Source: a virus
DNA: 45,055 nucleotides
IMG/VR virus record: IMGVR_UViG_3300020410_001053
Location: 1 to 45,055 of that record
Strand: one strand, 5' to 3'
Made by a program: the position numbers and the translations under genes. The notes under the pieces are model-generated. The model made no database searches. It had not been told where the DNA came from and saw nothing but the letters and a program-made list of their open reading frames with translations. Shown piece by piece: positions 3,646-45,055 of this stretch (its first letter is position 1; the number at the start of each line of letters is the position of its first letter).

Positions 3646-6600
3646 ATGTCAAAACAAGTTTGTTCATTATCAAACCCGGCTTTGCCTGCTAATATAGTAG
3701 GTCCATTCAAACAGACCTTATTTTTAGGCTGTAGCGTAAAATCGTTCACATCTTCGGTGGGATGGAATGAGCAGGAATCCAGTCTAAATATCGAGCTTAT
3801 TGAAGACCCTTGTGCGCCTGCTGATGGATCACTTAAATACTATTATCCTAAACCGGGAATGGTAAAAACTTGGAATCTTGCAGATCCCGGATTTCAGTCG
3901 CCTACGGTAGGAGCACCAGTCTATTTCAGGGTAGAAGATTTTGAGTTTGCAGGGATAGTCCAGTCTTGGTCTAAAAAAGATGACAGCTCTAACTATCCAA
4001 CTTATTCTGTAACTCTGTCTGATCCTAGGTTCCTCCTAGAGAACATGACAATTATAGCTGGTGAGTATGCTGGAGAGGTTAAGGATGTTCCCAATCTAGT
4101 AAATGCTTATGGATGGCTCGAAAGTATAAGTCCAGATGTATGCTTACTTGACGACAATCTAGAATGCCGCCCATGTACACTTGATAGCACAAACTTTCCG
4201 GACGATGATAATGCGGGTAAAGAAAATCCACTTCTAGGCTCTCCTGCAGATGGTTTTGGCGGCGCGAACGAAAATGACCAAGGAGTTCCTTGGGTAAGGC
4301 TTCAGGAAGCTATTCAAATTCTTCTTTCTGGAAATCCTCATCCTAAATATAGCCCAAAAGGTTACGCGCAGTTTAAAGGCCATTCAATCCTTACGGCTGC
4401 CGGACCTTCCCAACAGCAATGGAATATGGGAAGGATCAAATATGACAAAGCTAATGCTACATTAGGAACTAATTTTAATAGCAATGGTAAAATTTCGGAA
4501 TATTATGTTGATATATCTGAGATACCATTCGCCCCAACATACTACAGAATATCAGCTACCAGTCAAAGTCTATTATCCATAATATCTCAGGTATGCCAAG
4601 ACGCTGGCTGCGACTTCTATATAGAGCTGATCGTCACTAAGAATCTTGATAAGGTTATAAAGGTAAGAACAGTCAAGAGAAGAGCCCAGCCAAACTTAGG
4701 TGAGATTGAGGCTTTTCTTAATACTAACAACGACTATCTAATTTCAAAAAATGTGGGTAGAGAGCTTAGGAACGAGCCTACATCAGTATTTCTTTATGGT
4801 GCTAACTTAGAGCAAACATATGAAGTGGTCCCTACCGGAGCAAATGGTCAGCTAGGTCTTGATTATTGGGTTGGGATTACCGGCTTACATGAGTGTCCTG
4901 TTGAACAGCATTGGGGCTTTGATAGTAAGGGTGCATTTCAGGAGGTCAGTATATTCAGTGGAGATAGATATCACCAAGAAGGCCTTCTTGAGCACGATGT
5001 CTTAGTTGATATACTACCTCTTCAAAACAATCTGTCAAAACCGATCAAAAATTTACTAAATGGACTCGTCAGCGACTACAGTATAAGTGAGACGGAGTTC
5101 AGGATGGCTATGGGTAGCTTTGATGCTTGGCTTGCATATACGTGCTTTGTAGGCATTACAGGCACCGACCAAGATTTATTTGCTAGTGATATTGGAACAG
5201 TATTCGGGAGATTGCTCAAGCAAGATAACAATTTTGGTAAAAATATCCCTATGGCTGGTCTTAGTAGCAAGCTAAAAAAGGATAACGCTAATGACCTTAC
5301 AGCTAATTCTATTCCTAATGTTGTAAAGGTTGATGCTTCAGGATCATTTGCTAAGCCTGTAGGCAATATAAAGAAAGATCTAGAAGCTATACACAGTTTC
5401 ATTAAGGCTATTGGAGATGCTAACTACGGCAGAAAATATGTCGTAAAAGTTCCAGAGATATGCTACTATAAAGATGCTGGACAAAGCCGCTTAAATTTCT
5501 TTTCTGATACCCCAACTAGTGCCGCGTTCCCTCCTAGTGGTATTAGTGGTGTCTTAGACTTAAAATTCGGTAGTACAGGAATAGAAAGGTTTGAAGAAGA
5601 AAACACTGCAAAAATAAAGGGCATCGCTCGTTACTACATGGAGCCAGCTAGCAGCTCAATGAGCGGAGACTTCAAGCCTAAAGGCGACGACTATATAAGA
5701 TTTAATAGCGGTCTCTATTCCCCTCTTTCTGTTGACAGCAAGAACTATCTTTTTCCAACTGGCGGTCGTTCCGGAGAGCCAGTAGGATCAGCAACAGGCG
5801 TTGTGCCGGCTGTTATAGTAGAGGTGGGAACCCCTATCTTTAGCGGAAAACCTAAACAGACTAGCACTGAGGCTCCCGGAGATTTAAAATCTAGCCCAGC
5901 TGGAACAGATGCTCTAGGAGGAGAGGAACTAGTAGTAAAAGGTGACTGGTTTGGGCAGACACTTAAGAGCTGTTTTGCTGTTGCTCCTCAAGCATTGCCA
6001 ACTTCTGGCTTCGCAATACCTATTCTTAGCAATACTCAAAGATATGGGCCTTGGGGATATATTGGACCTCCGGGACCTGTAAGATTCGAAGAAGATACTG
6101 ACCTTGCCCCTTGGAATTACAACGGGTATGACCTGATGACATCTGGAGCAATAGAGAAGGTTGCAGATGGTTTGACATTTATGCAAGCTGGAGAAAGAGG
6201 AGGCTTTACGCTAGTAGGATACCCACAAAAGGCTTTGGGGCAAGACTTGAGATCTCCACAAAAGTCATGGACTTCATATACTCTTACTAACGCAACGACG
6301 AATTATGGCACATACAAGTATTTGCCTACTACTCCTATGGATGGCACATTCGGCCCTAATATAACTAGCTTGAATGTTAGTATAGGCGAAGGGGGAGCTA
6401 CAACAACATATGAATTAGCTACCTTTACTCCATCTTTTGGGAGAATGTCTAAGCTCAATGCCAATAGAATAAAAGAGATAGCCAAGCTAAGGGCAGAGAG
6501 GAAGAAACAAGAAAGAGAAAATAAGAAAATCGCTGCATTGGCTAATAAAGGAGCTTCAAGCGATCCGTCCATTTTACAAACTATTAAAGAGCACGTAAAA

Positions 6601-10323: not shown

Positions 10324-10839
10324 ATGATATATTTACCAAAACGAGCTGTTTTTATCCATATCCCTCGCACAGCCGGAAACTCTGTAACAAGTGCAATCTC
10401 TGAAGTATGTGCTGGCAAGGGTATTGATATAATATTAGGGACTAGCGGGATGATACAAAATTGGCAGCAAATGAAACGCCACATTAGAGCTGTCAAGCTA
10501 AAGGAGATAATAGATGAGTGGGATGATATATATAAATTTGCTATCCACCGCCCGATGAAAGAAAGAGTTAATAGCGTTGCAAGACTCATACAGAGAGATA
10601 TTGCTGGAAATGTTCATCAAGATCCCACATGTCCAGAAGATTGGAGAAAAGTTTTGACTAACGAAAACAAGGACTATTGGGCAAATTTTATGAGGCATGA
10701 CTTTGACTGGTATACCAAAGGGCGTGATGGGCAGCATATAGGGGTCGAGAGGTATGATTTTTCAGAAATAAATAATGTTTGGCATGAGATATGCGATAAG
10801 TGTCATATACCCCGATGCTCCCTACCTAAGTTGAATTGA
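10324..10839 (+). CDS. Sulfotransferase-family protein
   Basis: A short (171 aa) sulfotransferase-like protein, expected to move sulfate from PAPS to a sugar or other hydroxyl group. HIPRTAGNSV at residues 12-21 corresponds to the 5'-phosphosulfate-binding loop (usual form HIPKTAGTS), with Arg in place of the common Lys. AIHRPMKERVNSV near residue 74 corresponds to the 3'-phosphate-binding motif (RDPxxRxxS type), with His-Arg-Pro replacing Arg-Asp-Pro. It is shorter than most members, so the acceptor-binding part is reduced. It starts 3 bases after the phosphoribosyltransferase fusion and is followed 9 bases later by the pyruvyl transferase, which fits glycan decoration. Confidence 0.7.
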   Translation: MIYLPKRAVFIHIPRTAGNSVTSAISEVCAGKGIDIILGTSGMIQNWQQMKRHIRAVKLKEIIDEWDDIYKFAIHRPMKERVNSVARLIQRDIAGNVHQDPTCPEDWRKVLTNENKDYWANFMRHDFDWYTKGRDGQHIGVERYDFSEINNVWHEICDKCHIPRCSLPKLN

Positions 10840-10848
10840 GCAAGAAAT

Positions 10849-11613
10849 ATGAGATTAGTTGATCTATCTTTGTTCGCCCCAGTTTTTGAACCATTGTCTG
10901 GCCTAACAGTAGGTATAGTAGACGGCATAGGGAATATAGGAGATCAGTTATTATACCTGTCCGCTAGGGAATTATGTAAAGAGTTTAATATTGAGTACTT
11001 TACTGTAAACACTCTAGCTGAGAATCCTATACCAAGATGTGATAAGCTTTTATTGTTTGGTGGAGGGAACATTGGATTTCCGCCTGCTGTTGCTATAAGA
11101 AGAAAAGCCTTCGAGTCAGGAATCCCATGCTGGCTTTTACCTCAAAGTGTTGTGAGGTCCGAAGATCTACAGTGCGAGAAGGCATTCTTTAGAGAGTCTG
11201 TTAGTAGGGACATAATGGGTTATGGAGAAATAGCTCCAGACCTAGCTCTGGGCTTTAACTTTCCAGACTCTTGTATTAACAAAAGAGGTTCTCAAGTCTT
11301 CCTTAGAAGAAATGGAGGTTCTGTGCATCACCATGTCAGACACGAACTAAAGATAGATCCGGCTATGTGGTGTTATACTCCAGAGGATTACTGGTCTCTT
11401 GCAGATGAGTTTGAAAGCATAACAACAGATAGGTTACACTTAGCTATATGCTCTTTGGCTATGGGCACAGGCACTACGCTTTTGCCTGTGAACTATCATA
11501 AGAATAATGCCATGTTCAGAGAGTGGCTGGAGCCCCTTGGTTGCTGTTGGAAAGACCACATCCTTTCTAATGAGATCTCAGGCACTTTAGAAGGAAGGCA
11601 ATTTACAAGATGA
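10849..11613 (+). CDS. Polysaccharide pyruvyl transferase-family protein
   Basis: A 254-residue protein with the marks of the polysaccharide pyruvyl transferase family (a GT-B-like fold that adds pyruvate ketals to sugars). GNIGDQLLYLSARELC appears near residue 27, GGGNIGFPPAVAIRRKA near residue 73, and the C-terminal ITTDRLHLAICSLAMG segment carries the conserved Asp-Arg-x-His. It is somewhat shorter than typical members. Its stop overlaps the ATG of the following radical SAM gene by four bases (ATGA), so translation is coupled. With the neighbouring sulfotransferase it would put acidic groups on a glycan. The acceptor is unknown. Confidence 0.75.
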   Translation: MRLVDLSLFAPVFEPLSGLTVGIVDGIGNIGDQLLYLSARELCKEFNIEYFTVNTLAENPIPRCDKLLLFGGGNIGFPPAVAIRRKAFESGIPCWLLPQSVVRSEDLQCEKAFFRESVSRDIMGYGEIAPDLALGFNFPDSCINKRGSQVFLRRNGGSVHHHVRHELKIDPAMWCYTPEDYWSLADEFESITTDRLHLAICSLAMGTGTTLLPVNYHKNNAMFREWLEPLGCCWKDHILSNEISGTLEGRQFTR

Positions 11614-21715: not shown

Positions 21716-23353
21716 CTAACTTGTTAGTTGTTCAACTCTTTTTACCAAAAAACTTCCTCTATTTTTGTCTCGGCTCCCTCTAAGAAGGACTGTATTGCCC
21801 TCATAGAGCAAATTTCTATACTTTTCCCATTCGTCTGAGAATGCAGTTATATTATCTAGAATACAACTAGTGTCACCAGCTGTAATGAATCCCATACTTT
21901 TCCCCTTCGCTCTACCCTTCTTTATTTTCCACTCTCTCACAGATTCAATCTGCACAGCTATAACAGCTCCATATTGACTTTCGAAGCCATCTATAAACTC
22001 TTTGCACGTACAATTCGCCCTATCGGTATTGTACTCATCAACTTTATTGCATGTCAAGGCTATACCCAACAGTTCTTGTTCTTGCTTTGAGAGCCAAGAA
22101 GGAGAATCGAAGAGCTCATATCCGGGATTGTTGTAAGCTCTCAACAAATCTTCAACAATAGGGCATCTATCTCTTCTGAATATCGGCCTATTCTTATCTT
22201 TGCCCTGAGAACAGTTAATCATTTCTTGCAAGCACTCTTCTGTTGTTTTTTCGTAGTTGTTCTTCTTGTAGTCTATTAGCCAAGCGATTTCTCTTTTGCT
22301 AAGTTCCTTGATGATATTAAAATTATGTTGCATCGTAGACCTTGGAATTTTAAAACAATCAAATGCTCCTGCTAGTATAAGATTCTCAAAAGCTTTCTTG
22401 TTAACTTTTGGAGATACTAATATCAGAAAGCAAGACCAATCACAATTTCTAGGATCTATGGACTCACTATCCATATACTGCACCATTTTTTTAAATACTG
22501 AAGAGCCTACTCCTTTCACATTTGTTAAGCCATATCTTGGATGCTGCTCAATCAGTTCAAATTCTTCATTCATATGAATTATACTAGGAGGCATAGTATT
22601 GATTCCCATTATTTTTGCATTATTAACAAGCTCCTGAACTTCAATAAAAGTGTCTGGCTTTCCTACTGCATGCTTCAGATACGAAGTAAAAAACTCATGT
22701 GGGAAATGAGCTTTTGCATATGCCGTAAGATATGCATTATAAGCATAACTAACAGAGTGAGACTTATTGAAAGAGTATCTTTGAGATTTTTCAATCCAAG
22801 AGAATATTTCTTTTGCCTCTTCTGTAGTTACAATACCTCTAGCCTCGGATTTTTCTATGAAAGACTTTTTAACTTCTGCCATAACACTAGCTTTTTTCTT
22901 GCCAATTGCTTTGCGAAGAATATCTGCCTCTTGCAAGTCAAACCCAGCGATCTGCTGGGCAATAAGAATAGCCTGCTCTTGAAATACAAGAATCCCATAA
23001 GTGCTTTTTAGGATAGGCTCCAACGCTTCATGAAAGTACTCAACAGAATCTACCTTATGCTTTCTGTCAATGTAGTGCATAGTAAGAGTCTTTCCCTTGA
23101 CTACCGCCTCAAGACATCCGGGACGCATGATAGCGATTAGATCTGAAAGTTCTTCTATGTTTCTTGGCTTTGCCTGTTTTGCCAGAGATCTTCCAAGCTG
23201 AGACTCAAGTTGGAAAACTCCCTTGGTGTTACCTTCACATATCAAGTCCCAAGTCTTAGGACAGTCCATATTCATTTTTGTTATATCAGTGCAGAAGATA
23301 ATTCTACCTTCATCGTCTTGTTCAAACTGACATCCGCAATCTAGAGTTATCAT
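21716..23353 (-). CDS. dnaE: DNA polymerase III alpha, C-terminal half (split gene)
   Basis: This 545-residue protein is the second half of a bacterial-type replicative DNA polymerase. After a short Cys-containing lead (LDCGCQFEQDDEGRIIF) it enters at TWDLICEGNTKGVFQLES, continues through LIAIMRPG and the fingers motif YSFNKSHSVSYAYNAYLTAY, then a helix-hairpin-helix (GLTNVKGVGSSVFKKM), and ends in an OB-fold (near residues 455-545). All three catalytic aspartates are on the other half, so the two must assemble. Its length plus the N-half (545 + 625) is about that of E. coli DnaE (1160), so little has been lost. It starts just inside the end of the exonuclease gene. Confidence 0.9.
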   Translation of the reverse strand: MITLDCGCQFEQDDEGRIIFCTDITKMNMDCPKTWDLICEGNTKGVFQLESQLGRSLAKQAKPRNIEELSDLIAIMRPGCLEAVVKGKTLTMHYIDRKHKVDSVEYFHEALEPILKSTYGILVFQEQAILIAQQIAGFDLQEADILRKAIGKKKASVMAEVKKSFIEKSEARGIVTTEEAKEIFSWIEKSQRYSFNKSHSVSYAYNAYLTAYAKAHFPHEFFTSYLKHAVGKPDTFIEVQELVNNAKIMGINTMPPSIIHMNEEFELIEQHPRYGLTNVKGVGSSVFKKMVQYMDSESIDPRNCDWSCFLILVSPKVNKKAFENLILAGAFDCFKIPRSTMQHNFNIIKELSKREIAWLIDYKKNNYEKTTEECLQEMINCSQGKDKNRPIFRRDRCPIVEDLLRAYNNPGYELFDSPSWLSKQEQELLGIALTCNKVDEYNTDRANCTCKEFIDGFESQYGAVIAVQIESVREWKIKKGRAKGKSMGFITAGDTSCILDNITAFSDEWEKYRNLLYEGNTVLLRGSRDKNRGSFLVKRVEQLTS

Positions 23354-24027
23354 TTACTGAACGCGCCCTTAAATTTACTTACACTTGCTTGTTTTCTATG
23401 GAACTTCAAAAACTTGACCATTAGCTTAGCCTCATCAATAGTATCTGACAAAGCTTCATGTGCTTGTGCACTAGCTTTAAGGCCGAAGAAGTCTCTGAAT
23501 GTATCAAGCTTCATACTGTTAGGCTCGTCGAGATTCTCGAACCAAGTGAATAAGATATCCATCATATCTATTTTAGTAACCGTAGATAGAGGCATCTTTG
23601 TTTTATATTTTTCCGATAGTCTTTTTAGGATTGGCAAGTCAAAACCAATAATGTTGTACCCTGCAGGGATAGGCTCTGTGTACCACTGTCCGGGCCTCTT
23701 ATCAACTTCATACTTGGAGCAGTAGGACATAAAGTTTTTCCAAGCGACTTTTTCCGTCTGACCATCCTTCCACTCTTTAATAATATCTTCTGACTCAACT
23801 CCTCTTGTCTTTGCGTGCCAAGCTATCGTATCCTGCCTCGCCTTTGTAAAATATTCGTCATCGTCGATTCCATCTGGCTTAATAGTAACCCTAAACGACT
23901 GAGCTTCCTTAATCTCCAAAGTTCTGGGGTCAACAGGAACAGCCGCTAACTCTACTGGGTTGCAACTGTACGGATCAGTCCCGTCAGTCTCTAAATCAAA
24001 TACGATAATCCATCTTTTATTTATCAT
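23350..24027 (-). CDS. DnaQ-like 3'-5' proofreading exonuclease
   Basis: A 225-residue DEDDh exonuclease, expected to act as proofreader (epsilon equivalent) for the split polymerase. Exo I is IVFDLETDGTDP (Asp and Glu bind metal), Exo II is NIIGFDLPILKRLS, and Exo III is AHEALSDTIDEAKLM with the general-base His and the last Asp. All key residues are present, so it should be active. A strong ribosome site (agagga) precedes its ATG. It lies exactly between the two polymerase halves, 34 bases after the N-half and overlapping the C-half by ATGA, so the three make one polymerase-proofreader operon. Confidence 0.85.
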   Translation of the reverse strand: MINKRWIIVFDLETDGTDPYSCNPVELAAVPVDPRTLEIKEAQSFRVTIKPDGIDDDEYFTKARQDTIAWHAKTRGVESEDIIKEWKDGQTEKVAWKNFMSYCSKYEVDKRPGQWYTEPIPAGYNIIGFDLPILKRLSEKYKTKMPLSTVTKIDMMDILFTWFENLDEPNSMKLDTFRDFFGLKASAQAHEALSDTIDEAKLMVKFLKFHRKQASVSKFKGAFSK

Positions 24028-24061
24028 TATTTTTTCCTCTTGTAATATATCCTATAATATA

Positions 24062-25939
24062 TTATACCTGCACTTTATAAGTGTTCTTTATAATATCAGG
24101 CATTTCCATAATCTTATCCAGCATTTTGATTCCAAGAACATCAAGCTTAAGCAGTCCAGCATCTTCACATGAGGGACCCTCAAATCCTGCTAGTTGACCC
24201 TTTCCTTCTTTGTCTATGACCATTGGGCATACATCATATATAGGCTGAGGAGATACAACAACGCCAGCCGCATGCTTAGATTGAATGATTTTTGTATCTT
24301 CCAATCTAATGGCCTGTTCAAATATCTTGGCAAACTTACCTTGCAGTGTTCCATTATCATCTACATAGCACCACTCTTTCAGTTTGTCCTTCTTGTTTTC
24401 AAGAGCCCAAGTTATAACAGAGGCAGTTCCTAGCTCGTCTTTCATATCCTGTAGTTCATCTGAGATCTTTGCTTCATCTAAGATATGAGACGTTATAGCA
24501 TTTTGCTCACTAAAACCTATATTGCCTCTAGCTGCCATGACCCTCTTGAGCGCGGCCCGACCTTTCAGAGTTTGGAAAGTAACGATTTGGGCTACATTAT
24601 CCTCTCCATACTTCTGTTTGATATAATCTATAATATCATTCCTAGATTGTTTAGGAACATCAATATCAATATCAGGCATTGATACTCTTCCACCTGCATT
24701 TCGTCCAGCATTGTAAAATCTCTCAAAAATTAAATCATGCCGCATAGGATCAATTTTGGTAATATCCATAAGATAGGAAACCATACATCCGGCGGCACTT
24801 CCTCTTCCGGGCCCTGTGAGATAGCCTCTTCTCTCAGCATACTTCAGAATATCTCTAACAATAAGGAAATAGCTTGATAGATTAGTCTCAGTAAAAATTT
24901 TAATCTCTTTATTGACCCTATCTCCGTACTCACTGAACAGTGAGCCTTTCTCAATATGACTCATCTTTCTAGACCAACCATCTCTACATAATTGTCTGAG
25001 GTAGTCATTCGGAGACATCCCGTCTGGGGAGTCGAATACAGGTGGGTTTGGAGGACCCAAAATTTCATATTGACTGCACATATTTGCTATGTCAACAGTA
25101 TGCTGCAGCTCTTCTTCGGTATGAAAATCTCTCATATCTTCATAGCTAGGAATATGATAGTTGTTTGAGTTGAAAAATGTTCCTAGAGATCGAGACTTAC
25201 CTTGCTTCAATTCTGTTTGTACCTGACCAATACTTTTACGCATTGAGGTACATAGTAAGACCCTTTGGTCATGAGCATCTTCTCGCCTACAGTAATGTGC
25301 ATCTGGAGTGGCTACACAGGGTATTTTTGTGAGCTTAGAAATCTCTCTAAGTTTTTCAGCAACTTCTTTTGCCTTCTCATTTATGAGAGAGTCAATAAGC
25401 TGTATTTCTATATAAAAATTACCCTTACCGAATGCTTCCTGTAGTCTCTCCGCTTCTCTGATCCCGTCACTTTGCCAGTTCGGATTGTCTACAACGGCAT
25501 TTGCTAAACGAGAGCCTAGATGACCACTAAAAGATACTAAAGAACCTTCCCCCTTGGATGCAAGCTCCATGAAATAATCAGTTCCCAGTCTAGGCTTGTG
25601 GTAGAAGTGCTCTACTTTGTTTGATATCGACACCATAGAAAGTAGACTCTTCCAGCCTTGCAAATCTTTTGCTAAGACAACCTGATGTGCAAGTTTGGAA
25701 TTATCAGGTTCTTTTACGGTAGCGTCTCTATTGCTGATATAAAACTCACATCCAAGAATAGGCTTAAAACCCTTAGAGATGGTCTTATGGAAGTCAATGG
25801 CCCCACTAACTGTGCCGTGATCAGTTAATGCACAAGCCTCAACCTCTATTTCCTCTAATCTTTTTGCAATATGTTTTGTTTGTGACAGTCCATCTAAAAG
25901 TGAATATTCGCTATGGACATGCAGCGGTACGTATTTCAT
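24062..25939 (-). CDS. dnaE: DNA polymerase III alpha, N-terminal half (split gene)
   Basis: This 625-residue protein carries the PHP domain and the catalytic palm of a replicative polymerase. PHP signatures are LHVHSEYSLLDG and ALTDHGTVSGAIDF. The palm contains GPGRGSAAGCMVSY, then MPDIDID with metal-binding Asp423 and Asp425, and the third catalytic Asp600 in LLKLDVLGIKMLDKI, only 26 residues from its end. The next stretch of a normal DnaE starts the other gene. ATG at 25939 was chosen over a TTG 15 bases upstream because it makes an ATGA overlap with the preceding nuclease gene. No intein sequence is visible at the split. Host range of such split enzymes cannot be inferred. Confidence 0.9.
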   Translation of the reverse strand: MKYVPLHVHSEYSLLDGLSQTKHIAKRLEEIEVEACALTDHGTVSGAIDFHKTISKGFKPILGCEFYISNRDATVKEPDNSKLAHQVVLAKDLQGWKSLLSMVSISNKVEHFYHKPRLGTDYFMELASKGEGSLVSFSGHLGSRLANAVVDNPNWQSDGIREAERLQEAFGKGNFYIEIQLIDSLINEKAKEVAEKLREISKLTKIPCVATPDAHYCRREDAHDQRVLLCTSMRKSIGQVQTELKQGKSRSLGTFFNSNNYHIPSYEDMRDFHTEEELQHTVDIANMCSQYEILGPPNPPVFDSPDGMSPNDYLRQLCRDGWSRKMSHIEKGSLFSEYGDRVNKEIKIFTETNLSSYFLIVRDILKYAERRGYLTGPGRGSAAGCMVSYLMDITKIDPMRHDLIFERFYNAGRNAGGRVSMPDIDIDVPKQSRNDIIDYIKQKYGEDNVAQIVTFQTLKGRAALKRVMAARGNIGFSEQNAITSHILDEAKISDELQDMKDELGTASVITWALENKKDKLKEWCYVDDNGTLQGKFAKIFEQAIRLEDTKIIQSKHAAGVVVSPQPIYDVCPMVIDKEGKGQLAGFEGPSCEDAGLLKLDVLGIKMLDKIMEMPDIIKNTYKVQV

Positions 25940-26481
25940 TCTATCAATTCCCAAATGCTATCATGTAGTTCTCTTATAGGTAAATTATACATGTTAACGT
26001 GAGTCTTGAAGCTATTTGTTTTGTCTATTCTCCCACTTTCCCAGAGAGAAGCCCTTTCCCAATACTCAAAAGATCCCATAAAGCCGCACAACCATATATT
26101 TTTTAGGCCATAATATTTCTTAGGATGACTTTTAGTGCATCTGTCAAACTCTAAGCTTATAAACCCATATAGGTCTGGTTTCTGATGCTTGCTTGTTTCC
26201 GCTATTGATACATCATAATGCGATCTTGGAGAGACTGTCCTTCTTTTTGTCTTTACCTCAAGTCTATGACCACATTCTAGAAGAAGATCATGGTTATATT
26301 TATCAAGACCTCTGTTGTTACTTACAATCTTTGCTCCCACATATGGTGCTAAAGCCTCCTCTCCTAAGTACCCAGCTATATTACCTCCGCCCTTCAGGAT
26401 AGAATTATTTATTGATCCTAGAGACATAGCCTTCTCTCTAGCACTTGCTATCATAGCGTCATTAAAAGGTAGCTTTATCAT
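25936..26481 (-). CDS. PD-(D/E)XK-type nuclease
   Basis: A 181-residue protein with a small nuclease core. NHDLLLECGHRLEVKTKRR near residues 63-82 gives D-x(n)-E-V-K, the metal-binding motif of PD-(D/E)XK nucleases, preceded by a helix with Glu (GYLGEEALAPYVGA). The C-terminal third is aromatic-rich and of unknown role. Similar single-domain nucleases occur in phage replication clusters and may process recombination or packaging intermediates. Its stop overlaps the ATG of the polymerase N-half (ATGA), and its own ATG overlaps the stop of the RecB/Cas4-like nuclease upstream, so it is firmly in the replication operon. Confidence 0.7.
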   Translation of the reverse strand: MIKLPFNDAMIASAREKAMSLGSINNSILKGGGNIAGYLGEEALAPYVGAKIVSNNRGLDKYNHDLLLECGHRLEVKTKRRTVSPRSHYDVSIAETSKHQKPDLYGFISLEFDRCTKSHPKKYYGLKNIWLCGFMGSFEYWERASLWESGRIDKTNSFKTHVNMYNLPIRELHDSIWELIE

Positions 26482-38877: not shown

Positions 38878-39564
38878 CTACTTAGTGTGTTCAAACTCAT
38901 GTAATTTTCTAAGAATTTTTGCGACGATGTCACTGCGGATTATATCAGAATAGTCTAGTTCGCATACTCCCACGCCCTCTACAAGTTCAAGACTGTCCAT
39001 GCATCTCTCAAGTCCTCCGCTTGAAGACCCCAGATCTGTTTGTCTTAGGTCTCCATTTATTACAGCTTTTGAGTTTCTACCTATTCTTGTTATGAACATC
39101 TTTATTTGCTCAAACGTAGCATTTTGAGCTTCATCTAAAATCATAAAGCAGTCATGAAAGTTCCTTCCTCTCATATACTCCAGAGGACAGAGTTCTATTG
39201 TGCCGTTGTCCCTGAGAGTCTCTACTCTAGTTGGTGTAAGATACATATTCATTTCCTCGATAATAGGAACTAAATATGGGTTTATTTTTTCTATAAGAGT
39301 TCCGGGAAGATGTCCCAGTCCACGCCCAGACTCTACAACAGGTCTAGTTATAATTATTTTTTTAAGCTTTTCTGACATTAGATATTCACATGCCAGACCA
39401 ACTGCAACACTAGTTTTTCCTGAGCCTGCGGGGCCGGAGCAAAAAGTAACATCCGAGTCTTCCATCTCGTCTATATAGATCTGTTGGTTTTTTGTCTTTG
39501 CTTTCAAAGACTTTCTTCTTTGCGGCTTTTCGTTTTGTGTTGTTGGCTTTCTTCTTCTTGCCAC
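38878..39564 (-). CDS. phoH: PhoH-like ATPase
   Basis: A 228-residue PhoH-family ATPase, frequent in marine phages. Walker A is GPAGSGKTSVAVGLACEYL near residue 43, RPVVESGRGLGHLPGTL follows, and Walker B is CFMILDEAQNAT. Then come GDLRQTDL and the C-terminal SDIIRSDIV, all conserved in the family. The start is GTG at 39564, supported by a ggag site 9 bases upstream. It may act in RNA turnover or phosphate stress during infection, but the family's true job in phages is unsettled. The N-terminal 30 residues are strongly basic. Confidence 0.88.
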   Translation of the reverse strand: MARRRKPTTQNEKPQRRKSLKAKTKNQQIYIDEMEDSDVTFCSGPAGSGKTSVAVGLACEYLMSEKLKKIIITRPVVESGRGLGHLPGTLIEKINPYLVPIIEEMNMYLTPTRVETLRDNGTIELCPLEYMRGRNFHDCFMILDEAQNATFEQIKMFITRIGRNSKAVINGDLRQTDLGSSSGGLERCMDSLELVEGVGVCELDYSDIIRSDIVAKILRKLHEFEHTK

Positions 39565-39654: not shown

Positions 39655-41469
39655 TTATGGGCAAGGACACTGTGTCGTTGCAACATCGCCATTGTAGTCA
39701 CCATCAACAGTTGGAGCACTTCCTCCGGAGGAAGCACAGGTTTCACTACGGCTGGATTCTGACCAGCTAGAACCATCCCACATCCAGACTATTTCACCAC
39801 AGAAAGATGTTACGCCCGACCCTGATGGGGACGCTCCTAATGCATTAGCCCAAAGGGTGCCAATGTTCTGAGAGTCTATTAATCTCTTGATAGGCATCTC
39901 AAGTACGGGTCCGGTCGCTTGATAATCGTCGGGACATTCAGCTTGATTGCGAGCGCCTGTCTGTGTCACTTCCCTAACACCAACAATAAAGTCGCACTCA
40001 GCATCACTCCAGTATGGGTCTGCATAACCAGTCACTGTACCGCTTGCGATAACTGAGCCAGAAGGGAGTAGACCAGTAGGCCATGCGGTATAGCGTGTAG
40101 GGCCATCAAAACCGCCACCAGCTGTTGTGCATTGCTGAGGATCTACTTGATTGAAAACCTGAACACACTCAGATGATCGGGCAATAATAGCATCTGCCGC
40201 ATCTCTCCATTTATTAGCTACACTACCCCTTCTTCCAAAGCCATCGGTATATCTTTGAAGACACTCGCAACCATTTGGCCCCATTTGGACTTTTACGAAG
40301 TCAAGTCCGTAGTGTATATATTCAAAATCAACACCTTCTACTCCCCCAGTAGCACCGGCAGACGTTATCACCCATTTATAAACATTCTGAAGGTCGTACT
40401 TTGGAGAATTACGGCATAGGTGGTTGGTCTCATAGAGTATACTGTCATAACTATATGTTCCAGAACAGTACCCAGTATTATTGACGGTAGTTAGAGCTCC
40501 AGATTCAGCAAGAGTTCCGGCATACGTTACGTCTCCACCGTGGACTATGAAGGTGCAGTCTCTCCCTATTCCTTCTACCAGTTCATCTATTTTTTCATAG
40601 CCACTTTCGGTAATAGGGTCTCCGTCTACAAAAAGTTCGGCGTACAATGTTATGTCATTCTGTTGGTCACAACGGACATCATTAACATAGAAGTATCCCG
40701 TTTGCCATTCTGTTCTACCGAGATGGTCGTTCGACGTTGATGGCATTTTACCCGAGAAAATAGATCGCCTTGTCCAGTCTGGCTCAGAGCCAGCATCCAA
40801 AGGAGTCTTTATATTTGAGCACCCTACATATTCTGTCAGGTACAGGCATGTTTCATCATCCAAAGTTTGTGGGCAATCATCACAGTTATCCACTGTTCCA
40901 CCATTATGCAAAGTCTGACTTTTAGTTCCTCCTCCTTGGAAGAACGCTACGGTCTGTTCCCGAGTACTCTTGTCAGCCCCTACGTTGTTAGCGCCTTTCT
41001 TAGTAACATCTGTCCTTACATCTATAGCTAGTATGCCGCTCTCCACTGGGTCTGAAGGATCTGTGTTCCACCCGTTGTAAGAATCCCATTTTCCATCTCT
41101 TATACTAGTGTTAATTTGAGGAGCTATTGTTCCTTGAGCAAAAGGCTGCAGAGAGTTTGCAGAATTACTAGATTTGCCAGAAGCGCCGTTTAGCCTATCT
41201 CTGAAAGGATTGTTTGGCAATGGCTTATCAAAAGGAAACTTCGATGAATCAACGGTTCCAGAAGCTGCCCCTGTCGGTATTTGGCCTATGGTAGGTTCCT
41301 GCCCTGCTGTTATAGGGGCTACACTCATGCCGCCTCCTGCTACAACACTGATAGAGTCTCCGGGGTTTCCAAATACTCCGCCCTCATTCTTGTTTCCTGA
41401 AGGTGTCCCTTTGTCATTATATGCTCCAGTGACTGGTGTCCCTGTGATATTTGTAATGAAATAGCTCAT
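39655..41469 (-). CDS. Large Cys-rich beta-type virion protein (604 aa)
   Basis: A 604-residue protein rich in Gly, Ser, Thr, Asp and Cys, with no enzymatic motif, signal peptide or membrane span. The first 130 residues are low-complexity (Gly/Asn/Pro). The body contains many short strands and cysteines (CDDCPQTLDDETC; NGCECLQRYTDGFGRRG). The C-terminus has a VWMWDGSSWSESS strand pair, then TCASSGGSAPTVDGDY and a CPCP end. The composition resembles the C-terminal part of the hub/fibre protein, so a virion adhesion or head/tail decoration protein is likely. It starts with an ATGA overlap to the small membrane-protein gene and is followed by a UUCG hairpin. Confidence 0.6.
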   Translation of the reverse strand: MSYFITNITGTPVTGAYNDKGTPSGNKNEGGVFGNPGDSISVVAGGGMSVAPITAGQEPTIGQIPTGAASGTVDSSKFPFDKPLPNNPFRDRLNGASGKSSNSANSLQPFAQGTIAPQINTSIRDGKWDSYNGWNTDPSDPVESGILAIDVRTDVTKKGANNVGADKSTREQTVAFFQGGGTKSQTLHNGGTVDNCDDCPQTLDDETCLYLTEYVGCSNIKTPLDAGSEPDWTRRSIFSGKMPSTSNDHLGRTEWQTGYFYVNDVRCDQQNDITLYAELFVDGDPITESGYEKIDELVEGIGRDCTFIVHGGDVTYAGTLAESGALTTVNNTGYCSGTYSYDSILYETNHLCRNSPKYDLQNVYKWVITSAGATGGVEGVDFEYIHYGLDFVKVQMGPNGCECLQRYTDGFGRRGSVANKWRDAADAIIARSSECVQVFNQVDPQQCTTAGGGFDGPTRYTAWPTGLLPSGSVIASGTVTGYADPYWSDAECDFIVGVREVTQTGARNQAECPDDYQATGPVLEMPIKRLIDSQNIGTLWANALGASPSGSGVTSFCGEIVWMWDGSSWSESSRSETCASSGGSAPTVDGDYNGDVATTQCPCP

Positions 41470-41768
41470 TTTTCAACCTTTTGTAATATAGTTTGAATAT
41501 TTGGGTTTTGCGTGCACATGGGACAAAATTCTTGTTGCCCCGGTTCGTGTATACCTATTCTGTGGTGTATCATTAATATGCTCTGCAGCAGTTGACTATC
41601 TCTTACCATAGAATGCTTCGGCATATATTTAAGATCTTCTGGAAAGACAATATCCATAGAAAAATTATTTTCCCTTTCTAAGATCTTACTGTATAAATAC
41701 ACCGTTGTTGCTAAATTTACTAAAGAAACAAAGAAAAGAACGTAAACTGCGTTTTTAAAAAATTTCAT
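41466..41768 (-). CDS. Small membrane-anchored protein with CxxC
   Basis: A 100-residue protein with one membrane span near residues 8-26 (VYVLFFVSLVNLATTVYLY) preceded by basic residues, so its bulk is probably outside the cytoplasm or its N-terminus acts as an uncleaved signal-anchor. The C-terminal part contains HHRIGIHEPG and EFCPMCTQN, a CxxC with nearby His residues that could bind zinc or act in redox. Its start lies three bases after the 97-aa gene stop. Candidate roles: a lysis-type or envelope protein, or a membrane partner for the DUF1501 proteins. None is proven. Confidence 0.6.
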   Translation of the reverse strand: MKFFKNAVYVLFFVSLVNLATTVYLYSKILERENNFSMDIVFPEDLKYMPKHSMVRDSQLLQSILMIHHRIGIHEPGQQEFCPMCTQNPNIQTILQKVEK

Positions 41769-41771
41769 GGA

Positions 41772-42065
41772 TCATACCGAAACATAAAATACTTTGCCGG
41801 TTCCAGCAGCGCTTACTAGAAAAATACTATTCGGATCTATAACTGGAATCACTATACTCTCTCCTGCAGAAATAGGGTATCCATCAGTTGTCTCTGAGCT
41901 ATCAGCTGTTACTGTAGACGATTGCCCTATATATATAGGATGGGCGTTTCCTGTTCCAGCAACTATCTGAACTCCTCTTTGGGCATGAAGCTCCGTACTA
42001 GCTAGTGATACAGCTGTAGTAGTTATGCCTGTTTTAGAACCAGTAAAAAAATTAGGAACTGCCAT
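41772..42065 (-). CDS. Small beta-sandwich virion protein (97 aa)
   Basis: A 97-residue, Ser/Thr/Gly/Val-rich protein that looks like a small phage beta-domain: GVQIVAGTGNAHPIYIGQSS, then GYPISAGESIVIPVIDPNS and a closing strand VFYVSV. This strand pattern is common in head-decoration or fibre-attached domains. A ribosome site (gggag) lies 10 bases before its ATG. It sits between the 189-aa beta-rich protein and the membrane-anchored protein in the same operon as the DUF1501 genes. Confidence 0.65.
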   Translation of the reverse strand: MAVPNFFTGSKTGITTTAVSLASTELHAQRGVQIVAGTGNAHPIYIGQSSTVTADSSETTDGYPISAGESIVIPVIDPNSIFLVSAAGTGKVFYVSV

Positions 42066-42087
42066 TTTTTATATCTCCCATTATACC

Positions 42088-42657
42088 TTATAGTAAGCTA
42101 AACTTACCAATTTCTTTTTTTGTTTTTGTTAAATTGAAAGTCTTTTTATCTGTTGTTTCGCTGCTTCCTCCAGCATCTCCAGCCTCTAAGTACACCTGAT
42201 AGATGTAAGCATAGCCATATGAATCATCGTCAATACCAATCCAAAGATTCAGATCTGTATAGTCTGTTATGTTATTTGCATCAGATTCAGGAATTGCGAA
42301 GTCAAGATTTCTTTTGGAGCCAGTTGCGAATCCGTCACCGGGACCATTAAACCTTTTAATTAACGTTGATCCTTCGTATAGTCTTAGGTCTCCATAATCG
42401 CTTGTGTTCTGGACTCTTATTCTAATACTTAAAGTAGACTTATCGCTGGGTTCGTCAATGTCGCTCAAGCCTAACTTGTAGTACGAGTAACCAGCTTCAG
42501 AGTCACCTCCTCTAAATCTAGCATAGTCTGTGTCGTCTGCAACTACTTCATCTATTGTAGGATACAAGGGGTCTGAGGAGCCAGTGCTTGCTCTCCAGCC
42601 ATATCCTCCATATGCTGTTACGGATATATCACTATCAGGTCGTGCGAATTGCGCCAT
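42088..42657 (-). CDS. Beta-rich virion-like protein (189 aa)
   Basis: A 189-residue protein rich in Ser, Asp, Gly and Tyr, with short repeated strands (YSYYKLGLSDI; LSIRIRVQNTSD; GDLRLYEGSTLIKRF; LNLWIGIDDDSYGYAYIYQV), the outline of a jelly-roll or carbohydrate-binding-like beta sandwich. An acidic, Ser-rich segment and a short basic tail follow. It begins immediately after the DUF1501 stop (no gap), so the two proteins are made together. It may be a virion-surface or sugar-contacting protein. Family assignment is uncertain. Confidence 0.6.
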   Translation of the reverse strand: MAQFARPDSDISVTAYGGYGWRASTGSSDPLYPTIDEVVADDTDYARFRGGDSEAGYSYYKLGLSDIDEPSDKSTLSIRIRVQNTSDYGDLRLYEGSTLIKRFNGPGDGFATGSKRNLDFAIPESDANNITDYTDLNLWIGIDDDSYGYAYIYQVYLEAGDAGGSSETTDKKTFNLTKTKKEIGKFSLL

Positions 42658-43875
42658 TTAGAAAAGCTCCTTTATAACCTTACCTGAATTAGCAATCTTC
42701 ATAGGTCTGCCATTGTTACTAGTAAACGTTGTGCCTAGAGATATTCCTAAAGCTTTACACACAGAAGCCATAACGTCCTGAGATGTGTGCGGTTCCGTCT
42801 CCACTCTAGTGCCGTCTGAGCTGGTTTCACCAACAGCAATACCTCCATTCATACCACCACCACCAACGACGACACTCCAACTTCTTGCCCAGTGATCACG
42901 ACCAGCATTTTGGTTGATGCGAGGAGTTCTACTAAACTCTCCCATCCAAATAACTACTGTATCATCAATGAGTCCTCTTTGTTCGAGATCTTCAAATAAG
43001 GCACTCATGCCTTGATCTAACATAGGAAGCTTATTGTCTCTTAATGTGGGATGAATATTTTGATGATTATCCCATCCTCCAAGATTAACCTCAATGAATG
43101 GAACTCCTGCTTCGACTAACCGCCTTGCCATTAGGCAACCTTTACCAAAACCATTATCTCCATATCTCTCTTTTACATTCTCTGGCTCTCCAGCTACCTT
43201 AAGAGCATCCATCTGAGAGCTTGTCAATACTCCAAAAGCTTCTTTTAGTATGGCTTGATGTTCTTTTGCAACAGAACCTCTTCTTTGATTTATGAAGCCT
43301 GTTTCTATAGCATCTAAAGCATATGCTCTTTGATAAAATCTTTGATCTACTTTTATATCTAAGTTCCTAATTCTACCATCGCTATTAACAACAAATGGTG
43401 AATACTTAGCGCCTAAGAATCCAGCGCCCATACTACCTCCTCCGACAGAGATAAATTTAGGAATGGAAACTTCCGGCCTTTGGAGCTGATGAGATATGAC
43501 GGAGCCATAGCTGGGATGAGTCATACTTGGATTAGGGACATAGCCTGTATGCATATAATATCTACCACGCATATGGTCTGCTTCTCTTGTACTCATGCTT
43601 CTTATAATCGCAGCATTATGCATCTGCTTTGCCATGAGAGGCATATGTTCACAGATCTGAACATCTCCAGATGTACTGATAGGTTTGAATGGGCCTCCTG
43701 TAGGTGCGTCCGGCTTCAAGTCCCAGATATCCATTGTTGAAGGACCACCGCCCATCCATAACAAGATAGCCGACTTGCCATTCTTCTTTAGCTCATCTTC
43801 ATTAGCTCTAAGGGATTCTATTAAAGATAAGGTAGGGAATACTGACAGATGTTTTAAAAAATTTCTACGCTGCAT
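42658..43875 (-). CDS. DUF1501 alkaline phosphatase/sulfatase-like protein with Tat-like leader
   Basis: A complete 405-residue DUF1501 protein (alkaline phosphatase/sulfatase-like superfamily). The start QRRNFLKHLSVFPTLSLI is a twin-arginine-type leader. The core has LLWMGGGPSTMDIWDLKPDA, then RGRYYMHTGYVPNPS, then GWDNHQNIH, WMGEFSRTPRIN and AGRDHWARSW; Asp and His residues of these blocks fit the metal-binding site of the superfamily. A phosphatase, sulfatase or related hydrolase role, outside the cytoplasm, is inferred from the fold, not shown. Such proteins abound in Planctomycetota. It overlaps the upstream broken gene by 11 bases and abuts a beta-rich virion-like gene, which is unusual for phage DNA. 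Confidence 0.88.
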   Translation of the reverse strand: MQRRNFLKHLSVFPTLSLIESLRANEDELKKNGKSAILLWMGGGPSTMDIWDLKPDAPTGGPFKPISTSGDVQICEHMPLMAKQMHNAAIIRSMSTREADHMRGRYYMHTGYVPNPSMTHPSYGSVISHQLQRPEVSIPKFISVGGGSMGAGFLGAKYSPFVVNSDGRIRNLDIKVDQRFYQRAYALDAIETGFINQRRGSVAKEHQAILKEAFGVLTSSQMDALKVAGEPENVKERYGDNGFGKGCLMARRLVEAGVPFIEVNLGGWDNHQNIHPTLRDNKLPMLDQGMSALFEDLEQRGLIDDTVVIWMGEFSRTPRINQNAGRDHWARSWSVVVGGGGMNGGIAVGETSSDGTRVETEPHTSQDVMASVCKALGISLGTTFTSNNGRPMKIANSGKVIKELF

Positions 43876-44149
43876 AATCTACTTCCAGCTTTTCTCCAAA
43901 AAGACAACATGCATCATGAGCCTTCTTGTGTTTCGCATAAGACTCATCATCAAGAGGAAGATACTCTCCATGACTCCAGAGCTTTTTACTACTACCATCA
44001 AAAGTCATACAACTACATGCAAAGTCTACTTCTACACACTCTTCATCAATACGCACAACCTGTGCGATAGAATACTCGTGTCAGTCAAAGGGAGCATTGC
44101 CTTCAAGAGGAAACTTTGTTCTTTGTACCCAATCATTTATTTTAACCAT
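43865..44149 (-). CDS. Small Cys-rich protein gene interrupted by in-frame UGA
   Basis: An ATG at 44149 overlaps the stop of the upstream DUF1501 gene (TAATG, the coupling used elsewhere here), opening MVKINDWVQRTKFPLEGN. The frame meets TGA at 44083-44081 (codon 23), then continues with no other stop for 71 codons (HEYSIAQVVRIDEECVEVDF onward) to TAG at 43865. The tail contains five cysteines (C, CSC and CC). A GTG at 44056 could start a 63-residue remnant instead. Either this is one protein with a recoded UGA (the downstream hairpin makes selenocysteine a formal option), or a nonsense mutation split it. The product's function is unknown. Confidence 0.55.
44052..44066 (-). promoter_or_regulatory. 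SECIS-like hairpin 14 bases after in-frame UGA
   Basis: On the minus strand, cgcaca-ggt-tgtgcg forms a perfect 6-bp stem with a GGU loop. The base of the stem lies 14 bases after the UGA and the loop 20 bases after it. E. coli fdhF has a stem with a GGUC loop 18 bases after its UGA. The bulged U needed by E. coli SelB is absent. It may be a chance hairpin, since the same bases also encode an acceptable peptide (IAQVVRI). Confidence 0.35.
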
Positions 44150-45055
44150 TAAATTAACTCCTTCAGTGGTTCTCTATGGTCTAGAAGGTATTGAGGTCTT
44201 CCGGTATTATCTAATAGTGTTGTGGACATAGTATCAATACCTAATGCTCTATACATAGTAGCACAGATTTCTTGGATATGCACTGGTCTAGTTTCAGGAA
44301 TTTCTCCTAATCTATTTGTAGAACCAACTATCTGCCCATGATTAAATCCTCCTCCTGCTAGTAATGCTGCAGAAACTTGAGGCCAATGGTCACGACCACC
44401 TTTTGGATTGATCTTAGGAGTTCTGCCGAACTCACCCCACACTACAACAAGCGTATCGTCTAGCATGCCGCGTTGATCAAGGTCTGTGACAAGCGCAGAT
44501 ACACACTGGTCAAGCTTTCCACCATGATCTCTGACCAAGCCAAAGTTATCACCATGACTATCCCATCTTCCATATGATAGTGTGACAGAGCGTGCCCCAG
44601 CAGACACTAAGCGGCGAGCCATAAGTACGTGCTCATTGACTGTGGGCGCTCCGTCATATTGGAACTTAAATGGCTTCCCATCCCCATACATCTCCCTTAT
44701 TTTGGGATCTTCCTTCGACAAATCTAGAGCATCTATTAAGGAGCTTGATGTAAGCACTCCAAAAGCTTCTTCGGTAAAGATATCTACATCCACCGCTTTG
44801 TCTATAGTCTTATTGAGGTTTGCAAATCCTGTCAACAATTCTTTACGATTTTTGAATCTTTCGACCTGCATATTAAGTTTTAGGTCTTCCATCATTTCAC
44901 CATTCGGCTTGAACGGCTTATGTGTATCGCCTAGATAACCGGCTCCTCCAGCTTCCGACCAAGGCGTATGTTGCGTTGGATCTGCCAACCCTACTGCAAC
45001 TGGTACAGCGGGGTCAACAGGCCCAAGAATCTTAGAGGCACACGCTCCAATAGCG
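44149..45055 (-). CDS. Second DUF1501 protein, 5' end outside window
   Basis: A DUF1501 alkaline phosphatase/sulfatase-like protein. The frame remains open to the right edge, so the TTG at 44988 is not the true start and the N-terminus with any leader is unseen. The visible 301 residues begin at the segment KILGPVDPAVPVAVGL and include GAGYLGDTHKPFKP, GRWDSHGDNFGLVRDHGG, VWGEFGRTPKINPKGGRDHW and AALLAGGGFNHGQIVGSTNR, the same order as its neighbour but clearly diverged, so not a recent duplicate. The metal-site Asp and His residues are retained. Its stop overlaps the start of the UGA-containing gene. Confidence 0.85.
   Translation of the reverse strand, partial: AIGACASKILGPVDPAVPVAVGLADPTQHTPWSEAGGAGYLGDTHKPFKPNGEMMEDLKLNMQVERFKNRKELLTGFANLNKTIDKAVDVDIFTEEAFGVLTSSSLIDALDLSKEDPKIREMYGDGKPFKFQYDGAPTVNEHVLMARRLVSAGARSVTLSYGRWDSHGDNFGLVRDHGGKLDQCVSALVTDLDQRGMLDDTLVVVWGEFGRTPKINPKGGRDHWPQVSAALLAGGGFNHGQIVGSTNRLGEIPETRPVHIQEICATMYRALGIDTMSTTLLDNTGRPQYLLDHREPLKELI

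Follow-up and report, generated by a model that had tools for sequence, protein, structure and literature searches.

Genomes of planctomycetes and related bacteria encode very large numbers of DUF1501 proteins (PF07394), yet no reported activity was found for them in the literature examined. A twin-arginine translocation (Tat) motif and a conserved operon with DUF1800 have been noted for the family in the available part of one report (PMC5122149). On the phage side, the DUF1501 match given for phage ZC03 in the available part of PMC5418858 is weak and lies on an open reading frame (ORF) of 61 aa, and the text of PMC5615132 contained no match for DUF1501. The available text on Phage-ZRK32, a phage of a deep-sea planctomycete, describes a 21.9 kb genome, chronic release and nitrogen genes (PMC10945688). 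Here we analysed the IMG/VR virus record IMGVR_UViG_3300020410_001053, the whole stretch of 45,055 bases being called the window below. It carries two DUF1501 genes, DUF1501-A and DUF1501-B, with a short frame containing an in-frame UGA between them. They belong to a family of large phages that bear up to four different export-tagged enzymes, seemingly captured separately from planctomycetes, and some of these phages add the UGA-containing gene alongside.

The main features of the window are:

44149..45054, minus strand: DUF1501-B, 301 aa, PF07394 at 214 bits, 5′ end lost at the contig end
43865..44149, minus strand: 94-codon frame of 285 nt with one in-frame TGA, candidate selenoprotein
44081..44083, minus strand: the in-frame TGA, codon 23, the same in 10/10 contigs
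44052..44066, minus strand: hairpin CGCACA-GGU-UGUGCG resembling a bacterial selenocysteine insertion sequence (bSECIS), its loop 20 nt after the UGA
42658..43875, minus strand: DUF1501-A, complete, 405 aa, PF07394 at 353 bits
43801..43875, minus strand: Tat-type signal peptide of A (MQRRNFLKH...RAN) with a hydrophobic stretch, about 25 residues, the end judged by eye

Both genes lie far above the curated PF07394 cut-off of 27 bits, which upholds the DUF1501 assignment proposed in an earlier note on this DNA, and the blocks described there as intact, GEF[SG]RTP and GRDHW, are present in both. A and B share 39 % identity over 271 aa. A whole form of B, on contig L003, has 427 aa and a Tat motif. 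In scans of IMG/VR, A matched 79 loci and B matched 30, some contigs being common to both. A locus holds up to four DUF1501 genes, which share a strand and run D, C, B, A. Excluding frames cut by contig ends and those below 350 codons, we collected 164 distinct full-length phage copies, which cluster at 50 % identity into six groups, with 59 copies in A, 40 in D, 36 in C, 21 in B, 6 in E and 2 in F. Eleven viral records of 105-180 kb, picked by hand, hold 4, 4, 4, 3, 2, 2, 2, 4, 3, 3 and 2 copies, one gene among them being cut by a contig end. Up to four DUF1501 copies per genome, and a conserved UGA frame between A and B, go beyond what the earlier note had seen. Neither A nor B matched any PHROG, and a protein-to-genome search of 50,697 GenBank phage records, from which F was left out, left A, B, C and E without a match and gave a single weak partial one for D (31 % over 113 residues).

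All 164 proteins contain RRx[FLMI] at a distance of 2-9 residues from the start, the start codons having been picked near the Tat motif with the motif in view. A hydrophobic stretch was seen in 6/6 groups, being weakest in E, and a cleavage-like x-A motif lies inside residues 15-45 in 148/164. With twin arginine, hydrophobic stretch and cleavage site, the phage DUF1501 proteins have the predicted make-up of Tat substrates. In the numbering of A, residues H101, W268, D269, H271, D287, F314, R316, T317 and G325-R-D-H-W329 are invariant in 164/164, and residue 313 is glutamate in 162 and aspartate in 2. Candidate metal-site residues are D269, H271, H328 and H101 (164/164) together with E313 (162/164). 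The median ratio of nonsynonymous to synonymous substitution rates (dN/dS) within groups is 0.031 for A, 0.036 for B, 0.042 for C and 0.056 for D, calculated from pairs with dS of 0.1-1.5 (134/1711, 45/210, 82/630 and 37/780, respectively). The DUF1501 genes are kept under strong purifying selection, and the functional retention suggested earlier agrees with these medians of 0.03-0.06.

A scan of GTDB genomes returned at least 592 stretches, and the results given here come from the best 80 loci, of which 70 are planctomycetes by title, 4 Verrucomicrobia, 1 labelled Actinomycetota and 5 bacteria without a stated group. Twelve genomes of Planctomycetota or Verrucomicrobiota contain from at least 62 to at least 74 DUF1501 matches each. 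The bacterial gene nearest to B is 67 % identical over the full length, the best among the matches listed for these 80 loci. For A, the closest of 149 genomes by identity is G005 (Planctomycetaceae metagenome-assembled genome (MAG) SP4, the source of locus L148), whose A homologue matches at 76 % over residues 1-348 and runs off the contig. Another gene of G005 is 83 % identical to C of L003 over the full length, the best among 117 genomes; in the same 117 genomes the nearest match to D reaches only 46 %, and the E subfamily gave no match at 1e-90, a threshold too strict to be meaningful. The A homologue of G005 is preceded by a DUF1549/DUF1553 gene and is therefore taken as bacterial. Such a partner was found upstream of 0/100 bacterial, mostly B-like, DUF1501 genes by a crude motif test, so that, judged by motif, the DUF1549/DUF1553-DUF1501 pairing is not general.

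A tree was made by a quick method from 157 rows, 57 of them phage (reduced at 88 % identity, one repeating the window) and 100 bacterial (reduced at 80 % from 144, a few of them kept by choice, with two matches below 300 aa dropped). On this tree the phage label takes 6 changes, at least 4 of which are forced by starred branches. Groups A, B and C are nested in different clades of Planctomycetota, and D, E and F form a phage clade next to a clade of the Planctomycetes-Verrucomicrobia-Chlamydiae (PVC) group. The tree shows at least four apparently separate captures of different DUF1501 genes from planctomycetes. In A and in C a bacterial row falls within the phage rows with unstarred support of 87 to 93, and repeated or reverse transfer is therefore possible. 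A duplication inside the phage as the source of A and B was ruled out, as the two sit in separate planctomycete clades. The earlier idea of captured host genes is backed, with a planctomycete source, by both the tree and the best bacterial matches. The divergence between A and B, which had been read as a sign of long retention in the phage, has to be read differently: the copies appear to have come separately from bacterial subfamilies that had already diverged, so that it is no evidence of long retention inside the phage. The host is most likely a member of Planctomycetota, to judge from these similarities; it probably belongs to the ocean planctomycetes, as the names of the sample and of the MAGs suggest.

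The AlphaFold2 (AF2) model of A has a predicted local distance difference test score (pLDDT) of 90.3 and a predicted template modelling score (pTM) of 0.88. VIA-align gave Z 18.3 to ENPP6 (3.2 Å over 242 residues) and 17.2 to choline sulfatase, and the 50 listed entries, at Z 16.6-18.3, include NPPs, PafA, SPAP, phosphonate hydrolase and sulfatases. The top matches of Foldseek were sulfamidase and choline sulfatase, with E of about 2e-6 to 3e-6 (best 1.9e-6). By sequence, A alone recovered nothing credible among solved structures, and a profile found weak sulfatase and LtaS matches there (E 0.05 to 0.35). Compared with 14 planctomycete sulfatases, the profile aligns in its C-terminal half (probability 92.5, E 4.8e-7). 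The predicted fold of A is that of the alkaline-phosphatase superfamily, in agreement with the placement in the earlier note. In an alignment made by eye, the invariant H101, nine residues before TG in A, stands at the nucleophile position of sulfatases. The phage DUF1501 proteins may remove sulfate or phosphate from glycans.

The window itself is phage DNA, with genes for DnaB, primase, a UvsX/RecA-like protein, a PD-(D/E)XK nuclease, an exonuclease, a deoxynucleoside monophosphate (dNMP) kinase and PhoH. No tRNA genes were found in it. The coding sequence of DNA polymerase III alpha is divided over two genes that flank one for an RNase T-type exonuclease (21716..25954). The small neighbours of A at 41469..42657 and a 604-aa gene had no match in Pfam or PHROGs. 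Further features of the window and its relatives are:

42088..42657, minus strand: 189-aa gene directly abutting A with no overlap, no family match
38878..39564, minus strand: PhoH-like gene downstream of A, PF02562 at 228 bits, phrog_170
10324..10839, plus strand: sulfotransferase-like gene, phrog_3347, E 4e-8
10849..11613, plus strand: polysaccharide pyruvyl transferase-like gene, PF04230, E 1e-8
L005 6696..7082, L020 8968..9405, L036 8767..9237 and L047 9598..9999: small proteins with a Sec-like signal, by eye secreted or outer-membrane-like

The sulfotransferase-like and pyruvyl transferase-like genes are adjacent, and the phage may both add and remove anionic groups of glycans. Other glycan-modifying genes in the window encode a glycosyltransferase, a DegT aminotransferase and a formyltransferase. 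The small proteins of the last four loci carry the Sec-like signal MKYL..LLCLLF.., have an aromatic C-terminus (F or W) and sit between DUF1501 genes; that of L005 had no Pfam match. Proteins with the ending PGP[KR]WKARYWSC[KR]AW also recur by the array, at 5293..6711 in L003, 9247..9996 in L036 and 12179..12811 in L047, and the one in L003 matches DUF5824.

In five relatives (L003, L005, L020, L036 and L047), with genes named by eye, the DUF1501 genes are preceded by ribonucleotide-reductase-like or primase-, dNMP-kinase- and nuclease-like genes and followed by PhoH-like, recombination or replication genes; L003, L005 and L020 share with the window a PhoH-like gene downstream of A. The distance to the structural module was mapped in one genome, G278 (166.8 kb), in which the array lies at 55-59 kb on the minus strand, the terminase-like gene at 122 kb and the tape measure gene at 161-167 kb, both on the plus strand. 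The ends of G278 have 100 bases in common, apart from one mismatch, and this points to a circular genome. Replication genes surround the DUF1501 genes of the relatives examined, and in G278 the array lies outside the structural module. A bacterial-phage chimera at about 42.6 kb, named beforehand as a possible flaw, is not what we see, because other IMG/VR contigs likewise have A-type genes beside PhoH and replication-type genes, e.g. L003, which comes from a 125-kb contig. Of the overlap coupling that had been described, a part remains: a 285-nt frame separates A from B, and A abuts the next gene, but the UGA frame overlaps both A and B.

The reading towards which we lean, if only slightly, is that Tat-exported DUF1501 hydrolases remodel the envelope glycans of the planctomycete host during infection. 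The host, the export, the substrate and the benefit are the parts of it that we infer. The window is part of a large tailed-phage genome, most likely one infecting Planctomycetota, in which captured DUF1501 genes are kept, mostly side by side, among replication genes. Since every product bears a Tat motif, we propose that the proteins fold in the cytoplasm of the infected cell and leave through the host Tat system. Outside the inner membrane they would work as hydrolases of the alkaline-phosphatase superfamily, their substrates being anionic polysaccharides, sulfated or phosphorylated, in the envelope of the host. The host surface would be remodelled jointly with the sulfotransferase-like, pyruvyl transferase-like, glycosyl-, amino- and formyl-transferases of the phage, and the most likely benefit would be that competing phages are shut out or that release is aided. 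Remodelling of envelope glycans is favoured because the window codes for glycan-modifying enzymes and the DUF1501 fold is hydrolase-like. Several observations weigh against this reading. The formylglycine signature C/S-x-P/A-x-R before TG was found in 0/164 phage DUF1501 proteins, the Foldseek superpositions are loose (TM about 0.4, rmsd, the root-mean-square deviation, about 10 or more), and no reported activity for any DUF1501 protein was found in the literature examined, the coverage of which was partial. The host is assigned solely by gene similarity, and no DUF1549/DUF1553 was present among the Pfam matches of 48 window proteins. The copies of G281 are not in tandem but 58 kb apart on opposite strands, and PhoH downstream of A would also fit a supply of phosphate.

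That last point leads to a rival reading, nutrient supply, in which the exported enzymes free phosphate, or carbon of sulfated glycans, for the infected cell. Some marine phages carry phosphate-acquisition genes. The position of PhoH would suit such a role, as would the strong purifying selection and the nearest solved folds, which include phosphodiesterases and alkaline phosphatases (PafA, SPAP) besides sulfatases. However, up to four diverged and separately captured copies exceed the need for one phosphatase activity, and the glycan-adding genes of the phage point to remodelling; we consider nutrient supply rather unlikely. The earlier note had placed the genes in a virion-type operon, and a second rival reading is a role in the particle, with digestion of capsule at entry. 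By eye, the products of 42088..42657 and 41772..42065, which have no family match, resemble phage particle proteins. However, the neighbours that suggested such an operon are without family match, the relatives have their DUF1501 genes among nucleotide-metabolism and replication-type genes, the Tat motif is found in 164/164, and the terminase and tape measure genes of G278 are distant and on the other strand. On these grounds we dropped the virion operon, and a virion role seems very improbable to us.

Regarding the frame between B and A, several published links of viruses to selenocysteine provide the background. The bSECIS model used here comes from the available part of PMC13188914, with its rules of a loop of 3-9 nt, a stem of 4-16 bp, a G in the first two loop positions, a distance of 16-37 nt from the UGA and an energy of at most -7.5 kcal/mol. 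The accessible text of PMC8310308 covers selenoproteins of two poxviruses, and that of PMC6145125 a tRNA-Sec gene in Basilisk-like phages, called by its authors the first such phage tRNA gene; links between phages and selenocysteine therefore have a precedent. In the part of PMC12386605 at hand selenocysteine appears merely as background, and in those of PMC12013277 and PMC1088965 no mention of a phage or virus was found. No phage selenoprotein gene was found in the literature searched, which had limited coverage.

The ATG of the frame overlaps the stop of B (TAATG), and its 3′ end overlaps the start of A. Homologues were sought by treating TGA as U and by a DNA pattern leaving codon 23 free; a second DNA pattern recovered the same nine contigs, and both patterns would miss forms altered in the FD-x-HEYSIA stretch. 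The TGA is present in all 10 contigs, window included, which hold 9 distinct ORFs. An ordinary TGA stop ends 15/47 genes of the window. Before the TGA, the first, second and third codon positions hold 9, 5 and 16 variable sites; the corresponding numbers are 0, 0 and 7 for codons 24-35, and 17, 10 and 31 for codons 36-70. Because the variable sites concentrate at third positions, the frame is translated on both sides of the TGA. Codons with the third base in the stem or the AGGU loop are unchanged in 4/4 cases vs 4/31 of the other conserved degenerate codons (p = 0.0013, 9 distinct rows, the codons having been picked after the hairpin was seen). With 7 rows, a synonymous-constraint test had given p = 0.034; the run length in it was not significant, as 3155/20000 shuffles were as long.

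The loop, stem and spacing rules are followed in 7/7 sequences run, and two distinct sequences outside these 7, L317 and L320, have the same hairpin letters. Taken alone, the hairpin has -6.3 kcal/mol in 3/7 (that of the window included) and -7.8 or -8.2 in 4/7, and folds of 60 nt fall within the -7.5 rule in 7/7 (-8.9 to -15.9). Some model hairpin follows 89/271 ordinary TGA stops, 3/271 of them at -6.3 or lower, and the counts for all TGAs of the window are 483/1628 and 15/1628. A further control over 231 open-flanked stops in the window was abandoned without a count because frames over real genes confounded it. Among eight planctomycete genomes, tRNA-Sec exceeds the cut-off in 5/8, SelB in 5/8 and both in 4/8, including G005 with the best matches of A and C. 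The UGA frame overlaps or abuts a DUF1501 gene in 8/10 contigs, one of these genes being decayed (L318). Contigs L317 and L323 share one identical UGA ORF and have no DUF1501 gene directly downstream.

The UGA frame is a candidate phage selenoprotein gene, and its product is most likely a small selenoprotein made along with the DUF1501 enzymes. The specific picture, a protein of 94 residues with selenocysteine at 23 and a conserved C-x-C, made by planctomycete machinery, with a bSECIS overlapping the coding sequence and in one unit with Tat-exported DUF1501, we hold with marginally more belief than doubt. Perhaps the protein helps the DUF1501 enzymes to mature or links their translation to selenium supply. 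Some results speak against a selenoprotein. Folded as RNA on its own, the window element does not reach significance (z -0.78), and the stem is invariant and hence shows no covariation. No cysteine homologue was found in four viral-contig scans, 392 Planctomycetota genomes and the GenBank phages, and no bacterial homologue in the same 392 genomes, two weak matches being taken as spurious. The AF2 model of the frame is poor (pLDDT 51.7). The alternative is plain readthrough of the stop codon, or two short genes around a regulatory hairpin through which translation is coupled to that of the following DUF1501 gene. A C directly after the UGA would fit it, and so would the fold z-score, the missing cysteine form in the viral-contig scans, the position at a DUF1501 start in those 8/10 contigs, and the hairpins of any energy behind ordinary stops. 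The near genomes G133 (second match of A) and G218 (second match of C), in which neither tRNA-Sec nor SelB exceeds the cut-off, would fit as well. However, the 7/7 variable sites of codons 24-35 at third positions indicate that the upstream frame continues past the UGA, and the hairpin combines size, loop and spacing in 7/7 with an energy that few control TGAs match. We rate this alternative as a serious one, somewhat short of an even chance.

In-frame TGAs were also seen on the bacterial side. The planctomycete DUF1501 genes L283 and L284 have one each, in the same alignment column. In this column all 13 other sequences aligned with L283, a gene of SP4, have arginine (14 of the 30 fetched loci were usable), and selenocysteine was therefore rejected for L283 and its TGA read as a nonsense change or sequencing error.

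At least four captures and strong selection in phages suggest that DUF1501 matters at the host envelope, and the phage copies are compact versions of the family suited to assay. The DUF1501 genes are also markers of a family of large phages that probably infect Planctomycetota, and few reports of such phages were found in the literature searched. If the UGA frame does hold selenocysteine, it would be an unreported phage selenoprotein as far as the literature searched reaches.

Compared with known systems, the phage proteins resemble the DUF1501 proteins of Planctomycetota in the full-length PF07394 match, the Tat motif and the core residues, with up to 83 % identity, but their genes are in a phage operon and lack a DUF1549/DUF1553 partner in the window. 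They share the predicted fold with type I sulfatases (PF00884) and NPP/PafA-type phosphatases, with a sulfatase profile match in the C-terminal half, but differ from type I sulfatases in the formylglycine signature (0/164) and in the histidine placed by eye at the nucleophile position. The UGA frame is like bacterial selenoproteins with bSECIS in its conserved in-frame UGA and in the loop, stem and spacing of the hairpin, as far as the available text of PMC13188914 defines them, whereas the candidate is in a phage and no cysteine or bacterial homologue was found in the sets searched. As in the Basilisk-like phages, a gene, here a candidate, related to selenocysteine is found in a bacteriophage; theirs, according to the accessible part of PMC6145125, is a tRNA gene and not a selenoprotein gene, and no tRNA was found in the window. 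Phage-ZRK32 is likewise a phage of Planctomycetota with host-metabolism genes, but it is far smaller (21.9 kb), is released chronically, and DUF1501 is not mentioned in the available portion of its description (PMC10945688). Finally, the DUF1501 genes resemble phage auxiliary metabolic genes in being host-derived enzyme genes under purifying selection, and are unlike them in forming a set of several separately captured paralogues, each with a Tat motif.

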